From NCBI GenBank assembly GCA_921293015.1, contig OV121097.1:27005429-27069428 (forward strand): a stretch of DNA of 64,000 nucleotides, written 5' to 3'. Numbering within the stretch: the first letter of the stretch is position 1; each line of letters starts with the position of its first letter. The stretch comes from Phorcus lineatus. Lineage: Eukaryota > Mollusca > Gastropoda > Trochida > Trochidae. Positions 5,084 to 62,105 of this stretch are shown piece by piece. The notes under the pieces were generated by a model. That model was given only the letters and a program-made list of their open reading frames with translations, was not told the origin of the DNA and did not search any database. The translations under genes were made by a program, and so were the position numbers.

Positions 5084-5395
5084 TGAGGTGAGGTGAGGTG
5101 AGTTGAGTTGGTGTTTAACGCCGCTTTCAAGATTATTTCACTTATATCGCGGCTGCTAGTATTATTGCAGGGAGAAAGCCCACAACACCACTGTTGCTAT
5201 GCATTGCGGTGAAACCTGCGAGCATCGGCTGGAACTAGCGAACCATGGGTGGTACTACGCTGAAATTCAGTGTAGCATTGCACCCAAACCTGACTGTGTG
5301 TAGAAGAGTTCTCTACTGCAGACAAAGTTGCCGAGCCCCTGGCGGGATTCGAACCACTGACCTCTTGATCCAAAGCGAACACGCTAACCCGCCCC
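5084..5395 (-). mobile_element. tRNA-derived SINE, near full length
   Basis: Read on the minus strand, it starts with a tRNA-like head whose B-box is GGTTCGAATCC, followed by CCGCCAGGGGCTCGG. A body of about 200 bp follows, including an internal TGCAATAATACTAGC stretch, and it ends in GCGGCGTTAAAC plus a (CTCAC)n tail. The same body recurs at 50400-50713. Compared with that copy, the A-box region here is shortened, so this copy is probably inactive. No clear target-site duplication was found. Confidence 0.8.
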
Positions 5396-19008: not shown

Positions 19009-20870
19009 AAAAGGCCCATTGCCCATTTGGGGTCAAGGGGTCACCGAACCTACAATTCAGAATCCCCATTGTCCAAGGAGTCTACACACAACTATTAAGC
19101 TATCAAGACCTTTTGGAACTGGAGAAGAAGATGAAAGTAGGATTTTAAGGTTTTGACCCCTGTGACCCCATTTGGGGTCAAGTGGTCACCAAACCTACAA
19201 TTTAGAATTCCCAGTGTCCAAGGAGTCTTCACACAATTTTTCAGCTCTCTAGACCTTTTGGAACTAGGGAAAAAGATTAAATTAGGGTTTTTAGGTTTTG
19301 ACCCCTGTGACCCCATTTGGGGTCATGGGGTCACCAAACCTACAATTTAGAATCCCCGTTGGCCAAGGAGTCTACACACACCTTTTCAGCTCTCTAGACC
19401 TTTTGGAACTGGAGAAGAAGATGAAATTAGGTTTTTCAGGTTTTGACCCCTGTGACCCCATTTGGGGTCATGGGGTCACCAAACCTACAATTTAGAATCT
19501 CCAGTGCCCAAGGAGTCTACACACAACTTTTCAGCTCTCTGGACCTTTTTGAACTGGAGAAGAAGATGAAAATAGGTTTTTCATGTTTTGACCCCTGTGA
19601 CCTCATTTGGGGTCATGGGGTCACAAAATCTACAATTTAGAATCTCCAGTGCCCAAGGAGTCTACACACAACTATTCAGCTCTCTGGACCTTTTGGAACT
19701 AGGGAAAAAGATTAAATTAGGTTTTTTAGGTTTTGACCCGTGACCCCATATGGGGTCATGGGGTCACCAAACCTACAATTTAGAATCCCCGTTGGCCAAG
19801 GAGTCTACACACACCTTTTCAGCTCTCTAGACCTTTTGGAACTGGAGAAGAAGATGAAATTAGGTTTTTCAGGTTTTGACCCCTGTGACCCCATTTGGGG
19901 TCATGGGGTCACCAAACCTACAATTTAGAATCCCCGTTGGCCAAGGAGTCTACACACACCTTTTCAGCTCTCTAGACCTTTTGGAACTGGAGAAGAAGAT
20001 GAAATTAGATTTTTCAGGTTTTGACCCCTGTGACCCCATTTGAGGTCATGGGGTCACCAAACCTACAATTTAGAATCTCCAGTGCCCAAGGAGTCTACAC
20101 ACAACTATTCAGCTCTCTGGACCTTTTGGAACTAGGGAAAAAGATTAAATTAGGTTTTTTAGGTTTTGACCCCTGTGACCCCATTTGGGGTCATGGGGTC
20201 ACCAAACCTACAATTTAGAATCTCCAGTGCCCAAGGAGTCTACACACAACTATTCAGCTCTCTGGACCTTTTGGAACTAGGGAAAAAGATTAAATTAGGT
20301 TTTTTAGGTTTTGACCCCTGTGACCCCATCTGGGGTCATGGGGTCACCAAACCTACAATTTAGAATCCCCGTTGGCCAAGGAGTCTACACACACCTTTTC
20401 AGCTCTCTAGACCTTTTGGAACTGGAGAAGAAGATGAAATTAGGTTTTTCAGGTTTTGACCCCTGTGACCCCATTTGGGGTCATGGGGTCACCAAACCTA
20501 CAATTTAGAATCTCCAGTGCCCAAGGAGTCTACACACAACTTTTCAGCTCTCTGGACCTTTTGGAACTGGAGAAGAAGATGAAAATAGGTTTTTCATGTT
20601 TTGACCCCTGTGACCTCATTTGGGGTCATGGGGTCACAAAATCTACAATTTAGAATCTCCAGTTCCCAAGGAGTCTACACACAACTTTTCAGCTCTCTGG
20701 ACCTTTTGGAACTGGAGAAGAAGATTAAAATAGATTTTTAAGTTTTTGACCCTTGTGACCCCAAATGGGGTCACGGGGTCACAAAATCTACAATTTAGAA
20801 TCCCCATTTGCCAAGGAGTATGCACATAAAATTTCAGCTCTCTAGAGTCATTGGTTCTGGAGAAGAAGTC
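19009..20870. repeat. 145-bp tandem array, about 13 units
   Basis: Units begin around TTTTGACCCCTGTGACC at about 145-bp spacing. At least three variants can be distinguished: CCCCGTTGGCC with GGAGAAG, CTCCAGTGCCC with GGAGAAG, and CTCCAGTGCCC with TAGGGAAAAAG. Most units match a consensus at well over 90% by eye, while the first and last are more diverged. One unit is a few bases short. Confidence 0.9.
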
Positions 20871-45780: not shown

Positions 45781-46344
45781 AAAATGTCAGTGATGTTGTG
45801 ATGATTATGATAGTGATGATGATGATGAAGATGATGTGTATGATGCATATGATGCTGCTGCTGATGATAATGTGATAGCAATGTGGACGGTGATGATGTG
45901 ATGTGATGGTGATGGTGATGGGATAGTGATGACAATGATGTGATGTAGGGATGATGATGGTGACAATGATGATGACAGGATTGTGATGATGATGACGGTG
46001 ATGATAGTGATGAAGATGGTGGTGATAGTGATGAAGATGGTGATGGTAACGATGATGTGATGGTGGTATGATAGTGCAGATGATGATGATGATGATGATG
46101 TGTATGATGAATATGATGCTGCTGCTGATGATAATGTGATAGCAATGGGGACGGTGATGATGTGATGTGATGGTGATGGTGATGGGATAGTGATGACAAT
46201 GATGTGATATAGGGATGATGATGGTGACAATGATGATGACAGGATTGTGATGATGATGACGGTGATGATAGTGATGAAGATGGTGGTGATAGTGATGAAG
46301 ATGGTGATGGTAACGATGATGTGATGGTGGTATGTGCAGATGAA

Positions 46345-46391
<47 letters not shown>

Positions 46392-50399: not shown

Positions 50400-50713
50400 G
50401 GTGAGGTGAGGTGAGTTGGTGTTTAACGCCACTTTCAAGATTATTTCATATTGCGGCTGCTAGTATTATTGCAGGGAGAAAGCCCACAACACCATTGTGG
50501 CTATGCATTGCAGTGAAACCTGAGAGCATCGGCTGGAACTAGCGAACCATGGGTGGTACTGCACTGAATTTCAGTGTAGCATTGCACCCAAACCTGACTG
50601 CGTGTAGAACAGTTCTCTACTGCAGACAAAGTTGCCGAGCCCCTGGCGGGATTCAAACCACGGACCTCCTGATTCGAAACCGAACGCGCTAACCACTGCG
50701 CTATTCCGTCCCA
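50400..50713 (-). mobile_element. Full-length tRNA-derived SINE with target duplication
   Basis: On the minus strand the head starts GGGACGGAATAGCGCAGTGG, with A-box TAGCGCAGTGG and B-box GGTTTGAATCC, both matching RNA polymerase III promoter boxes. The body of about 240 bp ends in GGCGTTAAAC and (CTCAC)n. Near-identical 12-bp flanks, ACCCGATAAGTA (50388-50399) and ACCCGATTAATA (50714-50725), mark the target duplication. This is the best copy of the family in the window; the tRNA of origin is not determined. Confidence 0.9.
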
Positions 50714-50725
50714 ACCCGATTAATA

Positions 50726-51149
50726 TCGTTTACCCCAATTGGACAGTCCTTTTAAGAATGTTCAAATTTCAGTGAATAAATCATAGAATAGGTATTCAGG
50801 ATAAAACTAAAAATCATCAGATAGAAAAAAAAATTATTTTATGAAATTTGACAAACCAAAGGGTTAATTGGAACAGAACCAAAATATAACAAAGTACAAT
50901 ACTCATTCAATATTTCACAAATTGCAAAGAAAATCAAATGAATGTTTGAATTCACTAAAGAAGAAGTTAACAATTTAAATGCATGATGTATATATATAAA
51001 ACAATATACTCAGTGGCAAATCTACAGGAATCTCCACTTTGGATATATATAAATTGTTCACTGGCTTTTATTTAGGTATCATGGGCTTAATTATTACAAT
51101 AGATAGACATAAGGTTAAATATATTGTATTTTAACTGTTTATTTAAACG
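50726..51149. other. AT-rich non-coding stretch
   Basis: No feature recognised. Confidence 0.45.
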
Positions 51150-51230
51150 GGAGGTGAGGTGATGTAGGGTTCAAAGCCGCTTTCAAGAGTATTTCACTTA
51201 CATCACGGCCGCTCAGTTCCAAACTGTTCG
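51150..51230 (-). mobile_element. SINE 3' fragment
   Basis: About 80 bp matching the tail of the same SINE (CTTGAAAGCGGC region and (CTCAC)n-like end), truncated at its 5' side. Confidence 0.7.
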
Positions 51231-51454
51231 ATGTGAATGTTCCATGTTCCTCAAAGACATTTTTTAAATTTCTAACAAATACATGCTTGATAATGATATT
51301 CCTTGACATGAATTGTAAATTCACTGTTGTCTAGTTGTGAATATGTGGTTTTCATATTCATAGGTAAAACTTACTTTGAAAACATGCAGCAATGACATGC
51401 TTTGATCGAAGAATTGGTGGCAGATATGTTTTTGATAATGAAATTGCTTTGAAT
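51231..51454. other. Non-coding spacer between SINE fragments
   Basis: No feature recognised. Confidence 0.4.
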
Positions 51455-51668
51455 TGAGGTGATATGGGGTTTGAGGCCGCTTTCAAGAGTATTTCACTCA
51501 TGAAGCGGCTGCTAGTATTATTGCAGGGAGAAAGCCTTCAACACCATTGTGGCTATGCATTGCGGTGAATCCTGCGAGCATATCGGCTTGAACTAGCGAA
51601 CCATGGGTGGTACTGCGCTGAATTTCAGTGTAGCATTGCACCCAAACCTGACTGTGTAGAACAGTTTG
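51455..51668 (-). mobile_element. 5'-truncated SINE copy
   Basis: About 210 bp of the SINE body and tail, lacking the tRNA-like head. It ends about 10 bp before the TTAA target of the piggyBac element. Confidence 0.8.
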
Positions 51669-52149
51669 AACCTTAGTTTAACCCTTAAGATGCGGGTCCC
51701 GGGCCTGTCCGGGTTGAAATTTGCTTTGACCGCATGTCCTCTGGGCGAGATGCGACATCCAAACTCTATTTTTCTCACGCTAGCTCATTAACGCCGAGGT
51801 TCACAGTAGCGAAGGACGGGCAATTGTTGCACGGCAGTAGTGTCAGTTTAACGCTAGTACTTTCCGTCCGTGTGTCGCTAAGCTACCGAATTTTGTTTCG
51901 TTGGTGTTCTAAATAATGCGCGTACATGTTCCGAACATTATGCAACGATTGATAACGTTTATCGTACCGATAATAAGCTTTAAAATCACTCAATTTTCCC
52001 CCACTCCCCGCCGCACGTGCTAATAGCCTGTGGGCACTTTCTACCCTCTCGCACGAGCTTACCGACCCGCGCATGCTATCGTTTACTGAGACGCGTGCAT
52101 TTTGACCCTATGCACGCCTTCCTATCGCACGCCCTATGTTCTGAACCCT

Positions 52150-53180
52150 TGGGCGGATTTCAATATAGGTGGGATCATTTGAAAGAGAAAAAAAATGTCT
52201 TTAATCCGATGTAAAAAACATATGTGCGCCTCGTGAAATAAAGATACCGCATGTGCCGCAAAAAAGGTGATTTTTATATATTTTTAGTTTTACACTGTTT
52301 TGTCACACCAATTTTCTCATGATGTGCTCAACATATTTTGACATTTTTTATATCACAAGATAGAGAAAAAGATTGTCTTTAATTCCATGTAAAATGTGTA
52401 CATGCGCAACAATTCATAAAGATACAGCAAGCGCCGCACAAAAAGGTAATTTTGCCGACTTTCTTATCATGTGATCTGAAGCGCGATTTTCATGTGCCTT
52501 TCTTTCACAATGAATTTCTTTTACACCGTGAAAAAGATTTTGTTGAATTTTACATCACTATAAAGACAAATGAATTGTCTTTGATTCCCTATATCAATTA
52601 TTATGCGCGCAAATAAATAAAGACTCAACAAGTGCCGTAAAAAGAACAACTTTCGCACTTCGCAATTCCGTTAGTGACGCAAATAGGGAAACCTTGGCAC
52701 TTCATATCCCCGTGTACAAATGACACATTTCAAAACCATTTATATCATTATCAAGAGGAATAAATTGTCTACAAAGTGATATATAAAATGTACATGCGCT
52801 AAAACAAACGACGATGCAGCAAGCGCCGCACAAAGGGTCCTTTTCATGTGATCTGAAGTTCGATTTTCATGTACCTTTCTTTGGCACTCGATATTTTCTA
52901 TACCACTTGGCGGATTTTGATAAATATTACGTCTAAATAAAGACGGAACGTTGTTCTTCATTTCAATATATTGATCATACATGCGCACACAAAAATAAAG
53001 GCACAAGAAGTGCCGCAAATTTGGCAAGTTTCGCATTTCGTATTTCTGTAACCAAGTGGCGCGCTCAACAATGTTTGGTATCAGCGTAAAGAGCAGAAAA
53101 TTCTCTTCAATTTGATATACAATTTGTTTATGCGCTCATAGAAATAAAGACTCAACAAGCGCCGCTAAAATGTTATAAAT
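52150..53180 (+). repeat. Left array of diverged repeats inside piggyBac
   Basis: About six units of 150-200 bp share a core like TCTTTAATTCCATGTA, then ATGCGCA, then AATAAAGA and a GC-rich GCAAGCGCCGC. Cores lie near 52195, 52377, 52580, 52765, 52950 and 53105. Units are strongly diverged from each other, so the array is old or under little constraint. Confidence 0.7.
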
Positions 53181-53330
53181 AAATGTAATAAGTAAAAAAA
53201 ATTATGAAGGAAACCCTGTTTCTTTAGTGTTCAATTATAGAGTTTTATAAACCATGAAAGTTGAAGGAAAAAAAACTTTTGGATTTACATTCATAGCGTT
53301 ATTGATGTCTTTTTTGAGTTAGGGGATTTT

Positions 53331-53605
53331 TGCGTCGGGCACCGCCATCAGTTCATGGGAAAATTGTCCAACGAAAATGTTGTGGTTGAGACACAGTATG
53401 TCGGGGATGCCGTCGGGAACCGCCATCAGGTCAAGGCAAAGTTGTCCAACGAAAATGTTTGTGGTTGAGACACAATATGTCGGGGATCTTTCGCCGGGCA
53501 CCGCCATCAGGTCATGAGAAAATGTGTCCAACGAAAATGTTCGTGTTCGAGAAAAAAAATTTCAGCGGACTTTCGTCGGGCACCGCCAGCAGGTATGTGT
53601 TTTTT
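53331..53605 (+). repeat. 78-82 bp minisatellite inside piggyBac
   Basis: Four units begin at GTCGGGCACCGCCATCAG-like sequence near 53333, 53411, 53492 and 53574. Each contains GTCCAACGAAAATGTT. The last unit is partly diverged. Confidence 0.85.
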
Positions 53606-53964
53606 TCTGCCAAATTTTTGTTGGTCGAGGAAACTCATTTTTGAAAAAAAAGTTTGGTAGCATTCCGATGTTTTAAATATTTTGCTATATATGTCGGGAT
53701 GGCATGAGTTCCTTCCAGTGAACTAAAGACAAGGGGCCGGGTGCTCGTTGACTACGGCCGTCCCGACGGATAGGCCCGTGGAACCTATCATTCTCGGAAG
53801 AGAAGTCAAAAGTTGAAAAACTTTTGTAATCCACAACTGACAATCAGAACTTTCCTGACGTAGAAGGCAGTTGTTCGCGACTCGCCGGCTCGTTGCATAG
53901 GAGTCAGAAGGCGGCATCAGGGTTGATAATGTTGATACAACGTCGGCGGCCGTCGGTGCCATCG

Positions 53965-54170
53965 GCACCTTCGGCGGGATTGTGAAAAGTCGTCCGAAAG
54001 TTAGAAAGTGTCCGGCGACATTAGAACTTGTTCGGCAGGATTGTGAAAAGTTGTCCGAAAGTTAGAATTTGTCCAGCAATGTTAGAATTTGTCCTGATTT
54101 GTTATTTTTGCAAATCGTGAAAAAAATGTCCAGCTTTCGCCAGGACAATTAGAAAAAGTCCGGATTATTG
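53965..54170 (+). repeat. Short repeats around GTCCGAAAGTTAGAA
   Basis: The phrase GGATTGTGAAAAGT(C/T)GTCCGA is duplicated about 60 bp apart, followed by several related GTCC(A/G)GC and TTAGAA words. It lies directly ahead of the transposase leader. Confidence 0.75.
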
Positions 54171-54349
54171 ATGGCCGCTGGCGCCAAAGGCGCGCAACGG
54201 CAAATTTGTTTCAAACACTTACAAAATGTGGCAATTGAATGTCCATGAAGCTCACATTGAATTTCTCTGTACAACAGGTCATGTGTTGATGTTATTATAT
54301 CTTGCGTGTGCCTAAATTATTTTCAATCATTTACAGATTGATGTGAAAG

Positions 54350-56338
54350 ATGCCTAAGGCCAGGAGGCCGCGAACCAGGAGTTGGGAAGGTCCGTCAACG
54401 TCTAGCGACGACGACTTCATCAACGAGGTCCATGCCGATGAAGCTTCTGATATGGAATCAACTGATGAGAGTGATAGTGACAGTGACAGTGATGGTGAAA
54501 GTGACATTGATAGTGATGTAGAAATAAGAAACATTGCAAGACACATATTAGCAGCTACGGGTGAAACTGCTACGACTGGTACTTCCACAGAAGAAGAGTT
54601 CAGTGGCTTTGATGAGCAATATAATGAAATGGACACACATTTTGATGACCGTGACAACTTTATGGAACGCTGGACAGAGGGTCCGAGGCCACGTGGACGT
54701 GTTGATCTCCAATTTACTGGCAACACGGGATTAGGACGCTTCATAGAATTGCCTGATAATCCGCATCCTGTAGACTATTTCGGGTTGTTTTTTCATGAAG
54801 ATGATTATGGATCAATGGCAGCAGAAACCAACAGATACTTCCACCAACAGGTTGACGATAAGGTTCTAAAGCCCTGTTCAAGGTTGAGGCAATGGTATGA
54901 TACGAATGCTGAAGAAATGAAAGTATTCGTAGCAATGACTATAGCAATGTCTTTGGTTGTACAGAGAAACTTTTCTGAGTATTGGTCATCGAGTGATGTG
55001 ACGTCGACGCCTTTCTTTGCCAAATGTATGCCTCGTGATAGGTTCTGGTTATTACTAACGTACCTACATTTGAATGATAATAACCAAATGCCTGGACGAA
55101 ACACACCCCAGTTTTCACCAATCAATAAACTTGGCTATTTGTACAAGCGCATCGTGCATCGTTTTTCCAGAATTTACAAGCCGCATCAAACTATTTGTGT
55201 TGACGAAGGGTTGGTGCCTTGGAAAGGCAATCTGAGTTTCAAAGTATACAATCCCGACAAGCCGAAGAAGTATGGGATAAAGGCCTACATGCTGTGTGAC
55301 TCAACCAATGGTTATGTTTGCAAGTTTGAACTCTACACTGGAAAAACAAATGAATCTGTTTCTGTCGGTGGGAAAACGTATGATCTCGTCATGGACTTGG
55401 TGAAGGATTATGCTGGGAAAGGATATCATGTGTTCATGGACAATTTCTATTCCTCTGTGGCATTGTATATAAACTTGTGGGAAACGGGAACTGGTGCGAC
55501 TGGGACGTTGAGAGGCAATCGCAAAGGCATTCCTGAGAAGGTAAAGAAGGCACAGAAAAAACAGAAGAAAGGGGATATGATGATCTATCACAATCAAGAC
55601 CTACTCGTTGTGAGGTATGAGGACAGGAAGTCAGTGCTGCTCATGTCAACCGTAGAAGACACTGAAATTGTAGAGACAGGGAAGAAGAACCGAGTGACTG
55701 GGGAAGCAAATACGAGACCACGTATTGTGCACGAGTACAACAAATATATGGGAGGTGTGGATCGGGCCGACCAGATGCTGTCGTACACCCCGTTCAAAAT
55801 GAAAACTCTTAAATGGTGGAAGCGAGTGTGGTTTCATGTGTTAAACGTTGCCATGTTGAACTCTTACATTCTCTATAAAGAATTCTCAAAAGACAAAACC
55901 TTGAAAACAAGCCGTCAATTCAGAAAAGATTTAGTGCAGCATATGATCACCTTCGCCGACACGGAAAAAGTACCTTCCCTGCGTAGACGTCCTCGTGGCA
56001 GGCCAAGCACAAGCGACGAAAGTGTGTTACGTCTTCATGGTCGACACTTTCCATCAAAGATTCAGCCTGTTGGAAAGAAGAAGAGGCTTTCCCGTATGTG
56101 TGTTGTTTGCTCCAAAGCGAAAAGAGAACTCTTTCGAAGGGCAGTGGAAGAAAGCAATGAGCCAGTTCGAAAGAAGAAAAGGGTAGGCAAAGAATCTTCT
56201 TACGAATGTAGCGAGTGTAATGTGGCTCTATGTGCAGCACCATGTTTCAGAATTTATCACACGTCACAAGATTGCACTAAAGCTTATATCAGTTTGATGT
56301 CAGAGAAGGAAAATGAGGGGGATAATCAAGAAGATTGA
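54350..56338 (+). CDS. piggyBac transposase, 662 residues
   Basis: An intact DDE_Tnp_1_7-type transposase that excises and inserts the element at TTAA. Residues 1-60 are acidic and Ser/Asp-rich. The catalytic aspartates appear in their family contexts: CVDEG (D285), FMDNF (D364) and GGVDRADQ (D471, D474). The conserved KKYGIKAY and VLNVAMLNSYILY stretches are present. The C-terminal cysteine-rich zinc domain is complete: CVVC at 584-587, CSEC at 620-623, C628, C632, H637 and C642. An acceptor-like TTCAATCATTTACAG ends about 15 bases before the ATG, so a leader intron is likely. Length is typical of the family. Basic clusters near 545-610 could serve nuclear import. Confidence 0.95.
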   Translation: MPKARRPRTRSWEGPSTSSDDDFINEVHADEASDMESTDESDSDSDSDGESDIDSDVEIRNIARHILAATGETATTGTSTEEEFSGFDEQYNEMDTHFDDRDNFMERWTEGPRPRGRVDLQFTGNTGLGRFIELPDNPHPVDYFGLFFHEDDYGSMAAETNRYFHQQVDDKVLKPCSRLRQWYDTNAEEMKVFVAMTIAMSLVVQRNFSEYWSSSDVTSTPFFAKCMPRDRFWLLLTYLHLNDNNQMPGRNTPQFSPINKLGYLYKRIVHRFSRIYKPHQTICVDEGLVPWKGNLSFKVYNPDKPKKYGIKAYMLCDSTNGYVCKFELYTGKTNESVSVGGKTYDLVMDLVKDYAGKGYHVFMDNFYSSVALYINLWETGTGATGTLRGNRKGIPEKVKKAQKKQKKGDMMIYHNQDLLVVRYEDRKSVLLMSTVEDTEIVETGKKNRVTGEANTRPRIVHEYNKYMGGVDRADQMLSYTPFKMKTLKWWKRVWFHVLNVAMLNSYILYKEFSKDKTLKTSRQFRKDLVQHMITFADTEKVPSLRRRPRGRPSTSDESVLRLHGRHFPSKIQPVGKKKRLSRMCVVCSKAKRELFRRAVEESNEPVRKKKRVGKESSYECSECNVALCAAPCFRIYHTSQDCTKAYISLMSEKENEGDNQED

Positions 56339-56442
56339 AGAAAGAAGAAAGAAGCAGAAGTGTGGACGAGCGTTACTCTCCTTATAAAGTTTATTCTTCA
56401 CATCAATAAGGTGAATAAGTGTAATATAAAATACTGATTGTC

Positions 56443-56448
56443 AATAAA
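56443..56448 (+). terminator. Polyadenylation signal AATAAA for the transposase
   Basis: First AATAAA after the stop codon, about 105 bases downstream, followed by a T-rich run at 56453-56462. Inference from position. Confidence 0.5.
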
Positions 56449-56599
56449 ATAATCTTTTTTTTAAGTCGTAAAAGACACAGAGAAAGTCAATGTGAGCTGT
56501 CACTGGACGTTCGATACGAGCCGCATCAAGAACATACCCCCGATCTTTCGCAATTTGTATTCTTAGAATCGGGTGGCGAAACTTCATACTTTTTACATC

Positions 56600-57790
56600 A
56601 TCGTAAAGGAAAAAGAACTGGCTTTGATTCAATATGAAATGTGTATGTGCGCAACACATAATAAAGAAGCGGCAAATATTGCGAAAAATGTCGCAATTAT
56701 CAATTTTTTTCCCAAAATGTCTGAGGGTCCCCCTCTTTAACGGTTCATATCTCCCGAACTATTTGGCACTTTTAAATTTTTTTTTCACCTTTCTCAAGCG
56801 GAAAGATTGATCTTTAATTCCATGTATAATATGCATGTGCGCAGATAATAAAAATGGTGCGGCGAGTGAAGCGACAAATGTCGCAAATAAAACGATTGTC
56901 AAAATCTGTTTTCAAGTAGTTGAGGGTGTTGCTCTTTCGCGGTTCATATCTCCCGAACTATTGTATACTTTTTTATATTTTTTTCACCTATTTCAAGAGA
57001 ATAGAATTGTCTTTAATTCCATGTATAATATGCATATGCGCAGTCAATAATAACGATGCGGTGAATGATGCGACTGGTGTCGCAAATAGAAAGCTTATCA
57101 AAATTTGTTTTCAAGTAGTTGAGGGTATCCCTCTTTCGCTTTTCATATCTTTTGAATCAGTTGGCACCTTTTCATTATTTTTTCACAGTCGTAAGCACGA
57201 AAGATTTATCTTTAATTCCATGTATAATTTGTACATGCGCAGCAGGAGATAACGATACGGCGTGCGTATAGAATGATTGGTTTTATTATCTCGGAATGTT
57301 CGGCCGCGAGTGACTGCACGCGCCGAGAGGATCGGTATGCCAGGAACCAACGCTGGTGCCTAGAACACTGGCTCTCGCATGCTGGTGCCTCGGGGGTACC
57401 CCGGGGGTATAACGGCACTAATTAGCGTACCGGTGCCAGACTGCCCTAGGGAGAATTAGTTCTGGCTAAAAATCGCGTTATGTCGGAGCATCCTCGGGGT
57501 ACCCCCAACCATCTTTCGCGGCGTATATCTTTTGAACTGGGTGACATATTCTAACAATTTTTTATCATCATAAAGAAGAATAAATTGTCTACAATTCGAT
57601 ATATAATACATGTATGCGCGCTCAGTATTAGGGATTTTATTCAGTCGGAAATAAAGACAATCTTTAGATAATTGGAGAAATCTAACTAGAGGTCGCATTG
57701 TAAAAAGATATATATCATCGTAAAGAGGAATTATGTATCTTCAATTCAATATAAAAAAATTAATTGTGCGATTATATTTAAGGATTTTCC
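56600..57790 (+). repeat. Right array of diverged repeats inside piggyBac
   Basis: About six units related to the left array and in the same orientation, with cores near 56620, 56808, 57008, 57208, 57587 and 57738. Three central units share TTCATATCTCCCGAACTA-type sequence and CTTTAATTCCATGTATAAT almost unchanged. A GC-rich non-repeat segment (57295-57530) interrupts the array. Confidence 0.75.
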
Positions 57791-58162
57791 GTAACTCTAA
57801 ATAAAGACAATCTTCATATTGTAATAGAAATCGTTCTAGGTAAGATAAAAATTTCATTCAAATTGTCGGATAAAGATCGTTCATTTGTGTACGGGATGGG
57901 CGGGCTAGTTTTGTATCGAACGGCCATTTTCATCCGTAATTCGCCATGTGAATACACCATATATTGTAAAAACGGTCGCGTCTCGCGGTGCTAAATAATT
58001 CAGCCACAGGGGCTAATTGCGCTATAACGGTAGCGAGGCGAGTGCTGGAAAATTCAGCCACGGGGGCAAAACTGGTCAAAATAATATTCAGCAACTTAAG
58101 AGTTAAAGAAGGAAAATGATGACTAATAAAGATATTATCTCTTTCTCATACATGACATTGCT

Positions 58163-59163
58163 CAGGGTTCGTACAGAATTTCAAGACCCAAATTTAAGGC
58201 TTTTTTAAGGCTTTTTAAAGGCTTTTTTTGACAAATTTAAGGCCAATAATGCAAGCAGTAAAACGAGAAATCACATTGAAAAGGACAAAAAAATCGCCGA
58301 TGTACTATTGTTTGCATGATACGATCCGTGATCAGTTACAGTCTTTAAAGTCCATATGATTTCTGCTTTCGTTACGTGTTCATTGGTCATGAAACTAGCC
58401 ACGCTCGTCTTCGTACTTTTTTTTTCATTTTCACTTGTCATCGAAGTAGGGGCGAGTGGGACACACAGTGACACATCAGGTACATCGGTAACAATTTCCG
58501 TCTTTGATTTTGAACAGAAATCTGTCATTTCCAACTTCATTGGCGCCGATCGTTCATTACAGTGTGCCTTGTGTTTGGCTCCATTACTGTGAGAGACTAT
58601 CGCACGTTCGCCCATCTTTCCTTATTCAAAAGACTTTCGGCAAAATGTACAGTAAACACGATATTTGTTGTCCTTCAGGTGTGTCGCCCAAGGATATTTC
58701 TTCATCCATGAAGAATTGAAAGCAACCTTCCCCATGACGATTGGTTGCTATTTCAAGCAGTGTCAATAGAACGTCATTTCCATATCAATGGCGGGAGGCA
58801 TTTAATGTGACAGAGCATGCGCACTAGATCCCATAGACACTCAGAAACGGCGGAATTACACGAAGATTTCTGAATGTACTGATGCAAAGGGAACGAACTC
58901 CAAATTTATTCTGAATCAGACGCACGCAAATGAAATCAATAGCAATACTTTCGAGAGGTTTGGTTGTAAATTTTAAAGTTATTTTGAATCAGATGCATAT
59001 AAATAAAATTAATAAAATCTTTGAGACGGTTGATAGTGAATTTAAGGCTTTTTTAAGGCTTTTGTAGCATTTTCCAGGCTTTTTAAGGCTAAATTTCGTT
59101 TTTAAGGCTTTTTAGGGCCAAGTGCCCAAATTCCAGGCTTTTTCCAGGCCTGTACGAACCCTG
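58163..59163 (-). mobile_element. Internally deleted hAT element
   Basis: The ends are CAGGGTTCGTACAG and, reversed, CAGGGTTCGTACAGG, with repeated AAGGCTTTTTAAGGC subterminal words. TTGCT is directly repeated at both flanks (58158-58162 and 59164-59168), fitting hAT subgroups with 5-6 bp duplications. Only the N-terminal part of a transposase remains inside, so it depends on an autonomous relative. An internal tandem duplication of about 85 bp lies at 58897-59046. It sits about 60 bp from the piggyBac end. Confidence 0.85.
58271..58723 (-). pseudogene. hAT transposase N-terminal remnant with BED-like zinc finger
   Basis: Minus-strand translation gives SSWMKKYPWATHLKDNKYRV followed by YCTFCRKSFE. 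After an in-frame stop codon (58622-58624) it continues GKMGERAIVSHSNGAKHKAH. The C-x2-C and H-x5-H spacing and the MGERAI..H..AKH context match the N-terminal zinc finger of hAT transposases in many animals. Further on, TKAEIIWTLKTVTDHGSY matches the segment that normally follows. The dimerisation and catalytic regions are missing, replaced by the element's end. It is non-functional as a transposase. Confidence 0.75.
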
Positions 59164-59168
59164 TTGCT

Positions 59169-62105
59169 ACTGTATAAAGATAACTGAGCTGTTTTGACAT
59201 GGAGTGGTAAATGACGAAAGTTCTCGACTCCTTCTCGATAATCATTATATTGATTTATACCAAAATATACTCACTTATCATGTTACATTCTATACAATTA
59301 TTTACACATTAATAGTTTTTATTACTATGTGTAGATAATGTAAAATAATCTGATAATTTGTGTAGGAGCAAGGTTTAACAAGAATTTATATAATTAGTGA
59401 GAAAATTGTTAACACATTAGTTTTTGAATTAGTAAAGACATTGAAAAACTTTAATAGGTTAACAAAATATTAAACCATGTTAATATTAAATAAATGTTTT
59501 TACATGTATTAAACAGGTTTAAGTCATCATTCATTCTTAAAACAAAATCCTAATTAAAAACACAGCTGATCAAATATTTACTTACAATTAAGCTGATATA
59601 TAAGCATGGCTTGTAAAAACAGATTAAATGACATACAAAATAGTGACAACTGAAAAAGAAAAGCTACTGGTATATATGGTTATCCCATATTGTAGATTAT
59701 TCACATACCAAGTGGGTATCTACCTAAATAGATCAAATACATGAACAGTAAACTCTCAAGATAATTATCTGATCACTATCAAACATTGTCGTAAGATAAT
59801 GATCATGTTATATCTTATCAATACTTATACTTGTATCAATTACTTCCATACATGGTACATGTATATTTCATACATTGGAATTTCAAGGTAAAAAAGATTC
59901 TTATCTTATAATATAGAAAATACATACCATCAAAATAGAAAATGAGAATAAACAAATACGTAAGCTCATCAGAATATAAAACTATCGACCAAACTTACCC
60001 AAATACACAGGTAAATTCCATAAATGTGTAGTCCAGCTAAACGACTCTCACCTGAGTATACAGGTAAGATAGACAGGTAAATCCACAGGTGTGCTCACTC
60101 CCACTCCCCGACCCAACTGGCCCTGGGTCAGCACTCTGTCCCCCCTCGTAAATCTCAGGTGAGATAACGAGATTATCCCCTCACAAAGGTAAAGTCACAG
60201 CGTATGACCGCGGCTTGTAATATTGACATTAGCTATAGTCCCATTTCAAGGCTACATTCCTTTCTCTCCACCATCCAACAATAAAGGGATGCTAATTTCA
60301 CATCTACATCCAAGAGAGGCCCAATGGTTGGTCAATTTCTAGATAAATTCTTGACCGACTGGTCATGAGAGCACGATATCACAGGACATCGTGACATGAG
60401 GTCATTCTGTGACAGTTTGATATCAGATTAACCACACGGGCGTGATATATCACAAGTAGAACAGCTCTCTCTGTATCACATGCGCAATGTACATTCGTCA
60501 ATAGCAAACTGACATATGTCAATGTCAACAAGGTCTTCCTTTGCACTTGGAGGGAGGTTCTATTGCAATGACTCAATAAAAAACGTCTCAGCCAAAACAA
60601 CCTCAACAACTTCAAATAGTTAAAACTTTCATTCTACAAGTCACAAATTACAATCACAAATTACAAAAATCAATAAGATTTTGATTTCTCACTAAAATCT
60701 TGTAGGATACAAACTTACCTACGTATGTCCCACATCAGAGAAGTCAATAAAGAAATTCACTGCATAACAGCCTCCAGGAGAAATGACACAAATCTAAAGG
60801 CCAGCCTATGTAAATAAATCCCAACACAGACCCAAGTGTGCAGTCGATAGCAACTCCATTAGCACAGTCTATATATGTAGATGTGTGTACATTTCTTCAT
60901 AGCATTGAAGGTCCCACTAGCACAGATGTCAGTTTTGCATTCCAAAGGTATACATATATAAGTAGAAATATGAAATAGAGAACACAATGGATCATATATT
61001 GAATCACAACTCGGATAAAGTTGTATGAGGTAAATTATCATTGACATATTTACATATGGCAATATAGCAATAGATATGTTTACAACTAATTATTGTATAG
61101 AATTACGAAGTTATCTTATTCAAATACACAATATTTACAAATCTCTTCAAAGTTATGTATGCTATCGTAAATATTTATTTTACGCGTAAATTGGTCGGTA
61201 TGTCATTACACTATACAAACACCTATCTTTCACTGTACACTATGGATCTATGGCTGTTCAAATCTATGTATGTCAAAATAAACGTTTCAGATGTCTATTG
61301 AAGATGTGCCTTTGTTTGACGAAATACTCGAGAGAAATCAATTTGTAGTATACTCCAGTAATGAATAAAACATAAACCATACAATCTACTGCAACAAATT
61401 CATAATTGAACAAAATAATTCAACACTTTTTGCTTCACCTTCATTTTTTTTAAAATTTAGGCACCATTTAACATACTTTACATAAATCAAAATCAACTTT
61501 GTAAACAACACTTCATTTCACTGATATTGATTTCCTGTCCTTTTGTAATAATGGATACAAATTACTAACTCTTCATACAAACTGCTCTAAATGAAACAAT
61601 TAAGTTCCATATCACAATCATGGGACAATATCCAACAGGTCTCTTAAGGTTATGATAGATATTTAGAACAATAACACATTGATACAAATCTACAAATGTT
61701 TGAAATAAACAACATACACCCTTAGCTTTAAACACTTTTCAAAAGATAAAATACAAATTATCATAAAAGCACAACATAACCCAAAATAATAACTGATACA
61801 AATTTGCTACAATGGAACATCAAAGGGGACACAATATCATATATTTGAAAATATTCTCTCTTTATCTACTGAGCAATAAAAAGAAATTAATATCCGATAT
61901 AATGAGATCCAATTCCGGAATAATTCAAACCTTCAGAGGCCTGGAGCCAGGTTGAAGTGCTGAGCAGACACATGAAATATGGATTTTCCCCCAGGATATA
62001 TTTATACTAAACAAATATTGTTACAGTGGGTTTCATAATTACGTACAAGGATCACAAGCTTTAAAGTTTATCTGCTATACCTATGTTATATCTATATATA
62101 TACCA
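59169..62105. other. AT-rich non-coding stretch
   Basis: No gene recognised. CAGGTAA/CAGGTG words cluster near 60008-60095, and the word CAGGTGAGATAACGAG is at 60156-60171. Confidence 0.45.

Follow-up and report, generated by a model that had tools for sequence, protein, structure and literature searches.

A Phorcus lineatus piggyBac element with same-direction repeat arrays on both sides of its transposase gene, and its gene-less partners

Transposons of the piggyBac superfamily are stated to have tips that start CC[C/T]T and inverted repeats of 12–19 bp (PMC2872659; this paper and the others cited here are drawn on in part). The subject of this report is a piggyBac element in the gastropod Phorcus lineatus, at positions 51682-58102 of a 64,000-nucleotide stretch of contig OV121097.1 (the window), in which the transposase gene lies between two arrays of repeated units. 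The nearest solved transposase is that of piggyBat, from Myotis lucifugus. The left end here carries GCGGGT at bp 11-16, where piggyBat has GCGGGA, and a spaced motif recurs three times on the right end (bp 11, 45 and 99), as compared to bp 11, 55 and 99 in the left end of piggyBat (PMC11707139). piggyBat differs in that its left end, 586 bp long, has short motifs; in the part of its description used here, it is presented without 190-bp direct arrays. The element here measures 6.4 kb. piggyBat is restricted by its own ends, and a third subterminal site restrains it (PMC11707139). The piggyBac of T. ni shares the superfamily, the TTAA target and a combination of short ends with an internal repeat, bound by its cysteine-rich domain, but that repeat is a 19-bp palindrome near the tips, not an array of 190-bp units (PMC7351741).

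Galileo, a Foldback-like element of the P superfamily in Drosophila, has tandem repeats of about 210 bp, variable in number, near its ends. Its gene-less copies consist mostly of repeated ends, chimeric copies occur, and exchange between subfamilies has been proposed, with the repetitive ends as the homology (PMC3573991). Transposase sites lie in the tandem repeats (PMC3688188). Galileo has a P-type transposase and long inverted ends, whereas here there are a piggyBac transposase and direct, same-way arrays. Measured by what marks Galileo and Foldback elements, the present one has neither long inverted terminal repeats nor a P-type transposase, and it does have chimeric copies and gene-less copies consisting of repeats only: it works like Galileo, yet is not one. 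Coral CMITEs, miniature inverted-repeat transposable elements (MITEs) related to piggyBac, are similar in their TTAA, their CC[C/T]T tips, a related gene-bearing piggyBac and an internal region better conserved between families than the tips; they differ in being short and in forming tandem arrays of whole elements, not of units within one element (PMC2872659). The literature on piggyBac with tandem or subterminal repeats, satellites or MITEs, covered partially and at the level of titles and the starts of abstracts, yielded no such arrays, and a literature search on end swapping found nothing.

The element in the window, complete at 6,421 bp, is to judge by its transposase and TTAA a piggyBac, and I will refer to its subfamily as A. 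Its tips are exact: the left starts CCCTTAAG at 51682 and the right finishes CTTAAGAG at 58102. Its parts are the following.

51682..58102, + strand: complete piggyBac element, subfamily A, between TTAA at 51678-51681 and TTAA at 58103-58106; supported by copy alignments
51682..52167, + strand: left end, 486 bp before the first unit, with GCGG at bp 11-14
52168..53183, + strand: left array, 6 units, from the unit profile
52960..54070, no strand assigned: block near-identical in subfamilies A and B (98.2% identity), its left edge near unit 5
53333..53594, + strand: tandem repeat with an 82-bp period and 3.3 copies, within the gene's 5' region, from a tandem-repeat scan
53970..54092, + strand: 61-bp tandem repeat, 2 copies, from the same scan
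54249..54270, + strand: left arm of a 22-nt inverted repeat, 95% arm match
54350..56338, + strand: transposase gene, 662 aa (PF13843; piggyBat 9c0f)
56443..56448, + strand: AATAAA, 3' of the gene and 5' of the right array, read from the sequence
56477..56498, - strand: right arm of the 22-nt inverted repeat, from the inverted-repeat comparison
56591..57817, + strand: right array, 6 units, from the unit profile
57999..58102, - strand: right tip, likely a transposase recognition module, with GCTGAA at bp 11, 45 and 99 from the tip

All 12 units lie on the + strand by the unit profile, reading in the same direction as the gene, with E-values from 1.8e-14 to 7.9e-24. Six start before the gene (52168, 52346, 52548, 52738, 52925 and 53074) and six after it (56591, 56781, 56980, 57179, 57558 and 57708). 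These 12 units also served to build the profile; 11 other A copies and 9 copies of a second subfamily, B, provide a check that is independent of them. Its best match on the minus strand inside the element reached only E=0.03, and its best match elsewhere in the window only E=1. Units are spaced 149-202 bp apart with one gap of 379 bp, the unit itself being about 190 bp, and are about 60-80% alike to a reference unit. An earlier, sequence-only reading of this DNA had described six plus six units in a single orientation and had held that they are not long inverted ends; both statements stand, the longest inverted pair in 50500-59500 being 31 nt. It overstated the case in saying that most units pair TTTAATTCCATGTA with AATAAAGA, since TTTAATTCCATGTA is exact in 4/12 and the hexamer in register in 6/12. 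RNA structure within the unit was considered as well and rejected: folding of 26 A and B units gave mean z values of -0.56 forward and -0.49 reverse, with 2 and 3 units, respectively, below -2.

To what extent the arrays belong to the element can be judged from its other copies. The genome searched comprises 958 Mb in 74 contigs, three of which (C1, C2 and C15) are named below; on another, C74, COX1 can be read through with the invertebrate mitochondrial code. A first look with a 201-bp probe gave 539 candidates. Forty were scored, all 40 matching at 100%, and 20 of the 40 were fetched whole. The 20 loci divide into 11 copies of subfamily A and 9 of subfamily B. Ten of the A copies are full-length and 99.66-99.84% identical to the window element, and the eleventh (L026) is 99.68% identical over 6338 bp. 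Subfamily B, of which one copy was measured at 6,781 bp, is about 86% identical to A over 5.8 kb. All 11 A copies carry 12 units (6+6) and all 9 B copies 14 (8+6), in one direction per copy, the left array of B being longer by 349 bp, or two units; L017 and L020 each have one extra unit match in a flank, among diverged family pieces. A third subfamily, C (L031, 5.5 kb), has 4+6 units, the fourth cut short. Arrays thus flank the gene on both sides in 22 of 22 gene-bearing copies examined (the window element, 11 A, 9 B and 1 C); gene-bearing copies lacking them were looked for, and none turned up among these 22.

The near-identity of copies at different TTAA sites points to transposition activity, and the family is best explained as a young, high-copy piggyBac whose transposase is nearest that of piggyBat. 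Genome-wide, the transposase core occurs at 507 places (up to 3 mismatches), the right end at 444 (exact), the left ends of A and B at 444 and 276 (up to 2 mismatches each) and the unit pattern at 5222 (up to 3 mismatches), while reversed-pattern controls for the transposase core, ends and unit pattern gave 0 each. A unit count above 507 times 7 or 8 is expected if there are more partial and gene-less copies. Family copies look crowded, by eye and among the matches listed, at about 33-36 Mb of C1 and 26-29 Mb of C2.

A unit of 150-200 bp is of satellite-like length, and the sequence-only reading had offered, as one idea, that the gene landed in or captured an existing satellite. The 100 exact unit matches listed form 65 clusters on C1 and C2. 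A cluster contains 3 of these matches at the most, and 53 of the 65 have an element landmark within 7 kb (the landmark lists hold exact or best matches only, and a diverged independent array could escape exact-match listing). Seven of the 12 clusters without a landmark were fetched. All seven are pieces of the family whose main match is 79-95% similar to A, and six hold gene or end sequence; in the 3 kb read of the seventh (L036), the one cluster with array sequence alone, the family is represented by no more than about 0.6 kb, made up of diverged right array and spacer. Exact units that at first looked solitary turned out to represent further subfamilies of this transposon. All 20 of the A and B copies fetched from other loci carry these arrays between TTAA-bounded ends. 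The landmarks near 53 clusters and the seven family pieces disfavour a landing in a satellite, which for this single copy I regard as extremely unlikely, and in this sample of C1 and C2 the unit is not mainly an independent satellite. The arrays look to be part of the element's own body, and they travel with the elements. Capture of an array from a satellite in the distant past is possible.

The arrays also occur without the gene. On C1, 26 of the 39 exact right ends have no listed exact unit within 7 kb inward, and 13 of these 26 were fetched. Nine proved to be full gene-less elements, which I will call N, about 2.44 kb long, consisting of a left end, 9 same-way units and a right end (L040-L043, L045, L046, L048, L052 and L053; the fetched stretches of L052 and L053 start inside the left end). 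Of the remaining four, L050 is a gene-less copy shortened to about 1.33 kb, which carries 3 units, and L049 is a B-like piece that holds gene sequence together with 4 units. L051 is a 179-bp right-end fragment, and L047 (the last 160 bp or so before the right TTAA, strand reversed) is a MITE-like element of 154 bp that has the right tip of the family; these two contain no units. Neither of the two array-less relatives among these 13 right ends, L047 and L051, bears the gene. Of the 13 right ends left unfetched, at least one (C1:35536960) has a B left end 6.83 kb away and the element probe, and so is not gene-less. TTAA bounds both ends of the window element, of the B copies and of the seven N copies fetched end to end (L040-L043, L045, L046 and L048).

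N is more numerous than the gene-bearing form. A core specific to N occurs at 1033 places genome-wide, as against 507 for the transposase core. On C1, 15 of the 26 right ends that look unit-less have this N core within 400 bp, and 0 of the 13 that bear units have it. When left and right ends among the matches listed on C1 are paired, 30 elements result: 19 measure 2425-2447 bp, 3 about 5.54 kb, 6 are of 6.26-6.50 kb and 2 of 6.78-6.83 kb (20 of the 50 listed left ends found no partner within the exact right-end list).

The gene-less copies fall into two kinds by their left end: the first 130 bp of N-A equal those of A at 100%, and the first 130 bp of N-B (L040) equal those of B at 99%. A and B themselves differ unevenly along their length. 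Divergence is 42% over the first 130 bp (57.7% identity), 19-20% over the arrays, 9% over the gene and 6% over the last 132 bp (93.9% identity). The tips of A are CCCTTAAG on the left and CTCTTAAG on the right and those of B are CCCTCAAG at both; the tip inverted repeat spans only about 8 bp, and the right tip of A is CTCT. GCGG stands at bp 11 of the left end in both subfamilies, and GCTGAA at the same three positions of the right tip. A and N-A are 96-100% identical over bp 1-400 of the left side (50-bp bins) and 100% over the last 100 bp. Past bp 600, identity between N-A and N-B is mostly 87-95%, with individual 100-bp bins at 82-96%. The identity step on the left falls about 400-550 bp from the tip, the array starting at bp 487, and the step on the right about 100 bp from the tip, adjoining the last of the three GCTGAA sites; the latter is clear for A and N-A and less sharp for B and N-B. 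That N combines a similar body with ends of A type in some copies and of B type in others argues that ends were swapped as modules. Subfamily C combines an A-type left end with a B-type right tip. By analogy with the motifs of piggyBat at bp 11, 55 and 99 (PMC11707139, as far as that source was drawn on), the tips are likely modules recognised by the transposase, a prediction.

Exchange has reached the interior too. The block at 52960-54070, which starts near unit 5 and holds the 82-bp repeats, is 98.2% identical between A and B. The genes of A and B are 90.8% identical with a synonymous divergence (dS) of 0.396 and a dN/dS of 0.093, and given that dS the block is best read as a recent A/B exchange of the 5' region.

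The explanation I consider moderately probable is that the array is a chassis and recombination platform, and that its best-kept string, TGCGC, is a putative protein site that matters where the gene is. There would be three modules: the ends (a left one of some 400-500 bp, a right one of 100 bp), a body of tandem units, and a gene region between two unit blocks. The units would have come to run in one direction most simply through tandem duplication. Shared arrays would then offer homology along which copies recombine, by unequal crossing-over, conversion or template switching, altering unit number (6, 8, about 4 and 9) and allowing gene-less elements to acquire the ends of whichever transposase is active. 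The TGCGC core would be a contact site for some protein, either of the host or the transposase itself, that matters chiefly in gene-bearing copies, and the role of the core would then be control of the gene or of the element's own mobility rather than a general cis need. A bolder version makes the three modules evolve and recombine separately, with array-only elements basic, the gene a cassette inserted into an array, and TGCGC a brake or switch discarded by gene-less elements, which follow new transposases by capturing their ends in recombination along the array; this I think rather unlikely.

TGCGC is intact in 11 of the 12 window units. The figures for A and B are 11/12 and 13/14 (24/26 together), for C 8/10 and for the part of D that was read 5/6, as against 2/9, 3/9 and 2/9 in three N copies (N-A versus A, Fisher p=0.002); in all nine full N copies it stands in 2-3 of 9 units, counts that are not independent, the copies sharing ancestry. 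Conservation of the core is 61% in N against 97%, a larger drop than at 41 other well-kept columns (77% against 88%), and the CpG content of N arrays and of A and B arrays is alike. In a set of 24 A and B units, which omits the two B units inside the block shared by A and B, TGCGC occurs in 22, the next non-overlapping 5-mer in 13 and the median 5-mer in 5.

These figures must be set against a serious rival, that the units are tandem duplications without function that hitchhike with the element and are occasionally homogenised. Unit number differs among subfamilies, and the unit-less MITE-like relative exists. A first selection test over whole units (identical in 502/582 against 427/552) looked strong but used columns picked on the same data, and in the cross-validated form, where one array served to choose the columns and the other to test them, conservation was not significant (odds ratios 1.41, p=0.10, and 1.21, p=0.47). 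The neutral account fits less well with TGCGC at 22/24 where the median 5-mer has 5/24, and with the uniform length of N, 2425-2447 bp in 19 C1 pairs; I consider it doubtful, if still to be taken seriously. Several points nonetheless weigh against the chassis with its protein site. Purifying selection on well-kept columns overall is, by this comparison of sequences, only a trend. Part of the loss of TGCGC in N may be general divergence, the 41 other columns also being lower. TGCGC is unlike the tip motifs GCTGAA and GCGG. Arrays are not strictly needed for mobility, to go by the 154-bp element without units, and recombination between arrays is read from mosaics, not caught in action.

The idea that the arrays bind transposase or a host protein, raised by the sequence-only reading, gains indirect support from the kept TGCGC core as a putative site, and it may be spelled out in two ways. 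The units may be extra transposase-binding sites that set or damp activity, a brake that gene-less elements escape by shedding TGCGC. An inner binding site does restrict piggyBat (PMC11707139) and THAP sites lie in the tandem repeats of Galileo (PMC3688188), insofar as those sources were used; TGCGC is kept in gene-bearing and mostly lost in the more numerous gene-less elements; and ATGCG occurs at bp 9 and 69 of the A left end. However, the units run the same way on both sides rather than mirrored toward the tips, the first 400 bp of the B left end lack ATGCG and yet B units keep TGCGC, and N-A and N-B share a similar body under two different ends, so that the units do not track transposase type. 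A brake of this kind seems to me fairly unlikely.

Alternatively, the arrays may be control regions of the gene. TGCGC would then be the site of a host factor, with an NRF1-type half-site (RTGCGC) as one example, and would serve to keep the gene active or to insulate it. Retention of TGCGC with the gene and its frequent loss without it would fit. A reported NRF1 site, TGCGCATGCGCAG (PMC3820735, cited from part of the paper), ends in CATGCGCAG, which is present in unit 57179, and the last N unit carries GCGCATGCGC. Against this, the string is short, half of the units lie downstream of the gene, and the link to NRF1 is one of resemblance; I would call this account improbable, on a footing with the brake.

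The sequence-only reading had also supposed that AATAAA-bearing arrays halt read-through transcription. AATAAAGA does occur 7 times forward and 0 times in reverse in the non-coding part of A, where a first-order model expects 0.23 and 0.19, but this bias of direction follows from the units being direct repeats. The poly(A)-type hexamer (AATAAA or ATTAAA) is in register in 6/12 units of A (8/12 if those about 25 bp further along in the last two units are counted), 4/14 of B and 5/9, 5/9 and 4/9 of three N copies. It is thus not kept among subfamilies and is equally frequent without the gene, and AATAAA already stands at 56443-56448, before the right array. These counts weaken the proposal, and termination by the arrays is very unlikely.

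If the chassis reading is true, it shows one way for transposons without a gene to keep up as transposases diverge: A and B are 58% alike in their first 130 bp, yet each has a gene-less partner matching its left end at 99-100%. The family would then also be a natural system for learning what subterminal arrays do in piggyBac transposition, whether they promote it, hold it back or simply go along with it; the restriction of piggyBat by its own ends raises this question (PMC11707139, in the part cited). Many near-identical copies in one genome make such testing practical.

The transposase frame at 54350-56338, situated between the two arrays, encodes 662 aa free of internal stops. PF13843 (DDE_Tnp_1_7) matches it at E=5.4e-94, with 315.8 bits against a cut-off of 22.4, and zf-Tnp_2 scores 22.4 bits, just below the cut-off of 24; its cysteine-rich region aligns with that of piggyBat. 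The only solved relatives at E<=0.01 are piggyBat (9c0f, E=1e-72), in an alignment that covers residues 101-638 and includes the C-terminal cysteine-rich part, and T. ni piggyBac (E=3.4e-39); by these scores the transposase is closer to piggyBat. The 82-bp and 61-bp tandem repeats sit between the left array and the gene. The 22-nt inverted repeat flanking the gene is matched at 21/22 in A and C and 20/22 in B, with background matches only in gene-less N, and may mark a formerly separate cassette.

A different piggyBac transposase frame in the same genome (L032, 3345-5048, 568 aa) has a similar match at C15:4226321. No unit was found in the 8.5 kb around L032, the one other piggyBac gene fetched, and on this single case the notion that unit arrays are a trait of all piggyBacs here was set aside.

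Searches of the window found no tRNA gene and no Rfam match at the gathering threshold. A 76-bp sequence at 50528-50603 recurs, 96% alike, at 51582-51657, the second copy stopping about 20 bp before the left TTAA, and the element therefore lies beside or inside another repeat. Directly to its right, at 58191-59153, are scattered 11-bp repeats of the TTTAAGGCTTTT type. Further away there are a TGA-rich repeat at 45791-46389 (264-bp period, 2.2 copies, 95% matches) and, at 19022-20868, a 145-bp tandem repeat of 12.8 copies with 91% matches, which by the unit profile shows no relation to the element.

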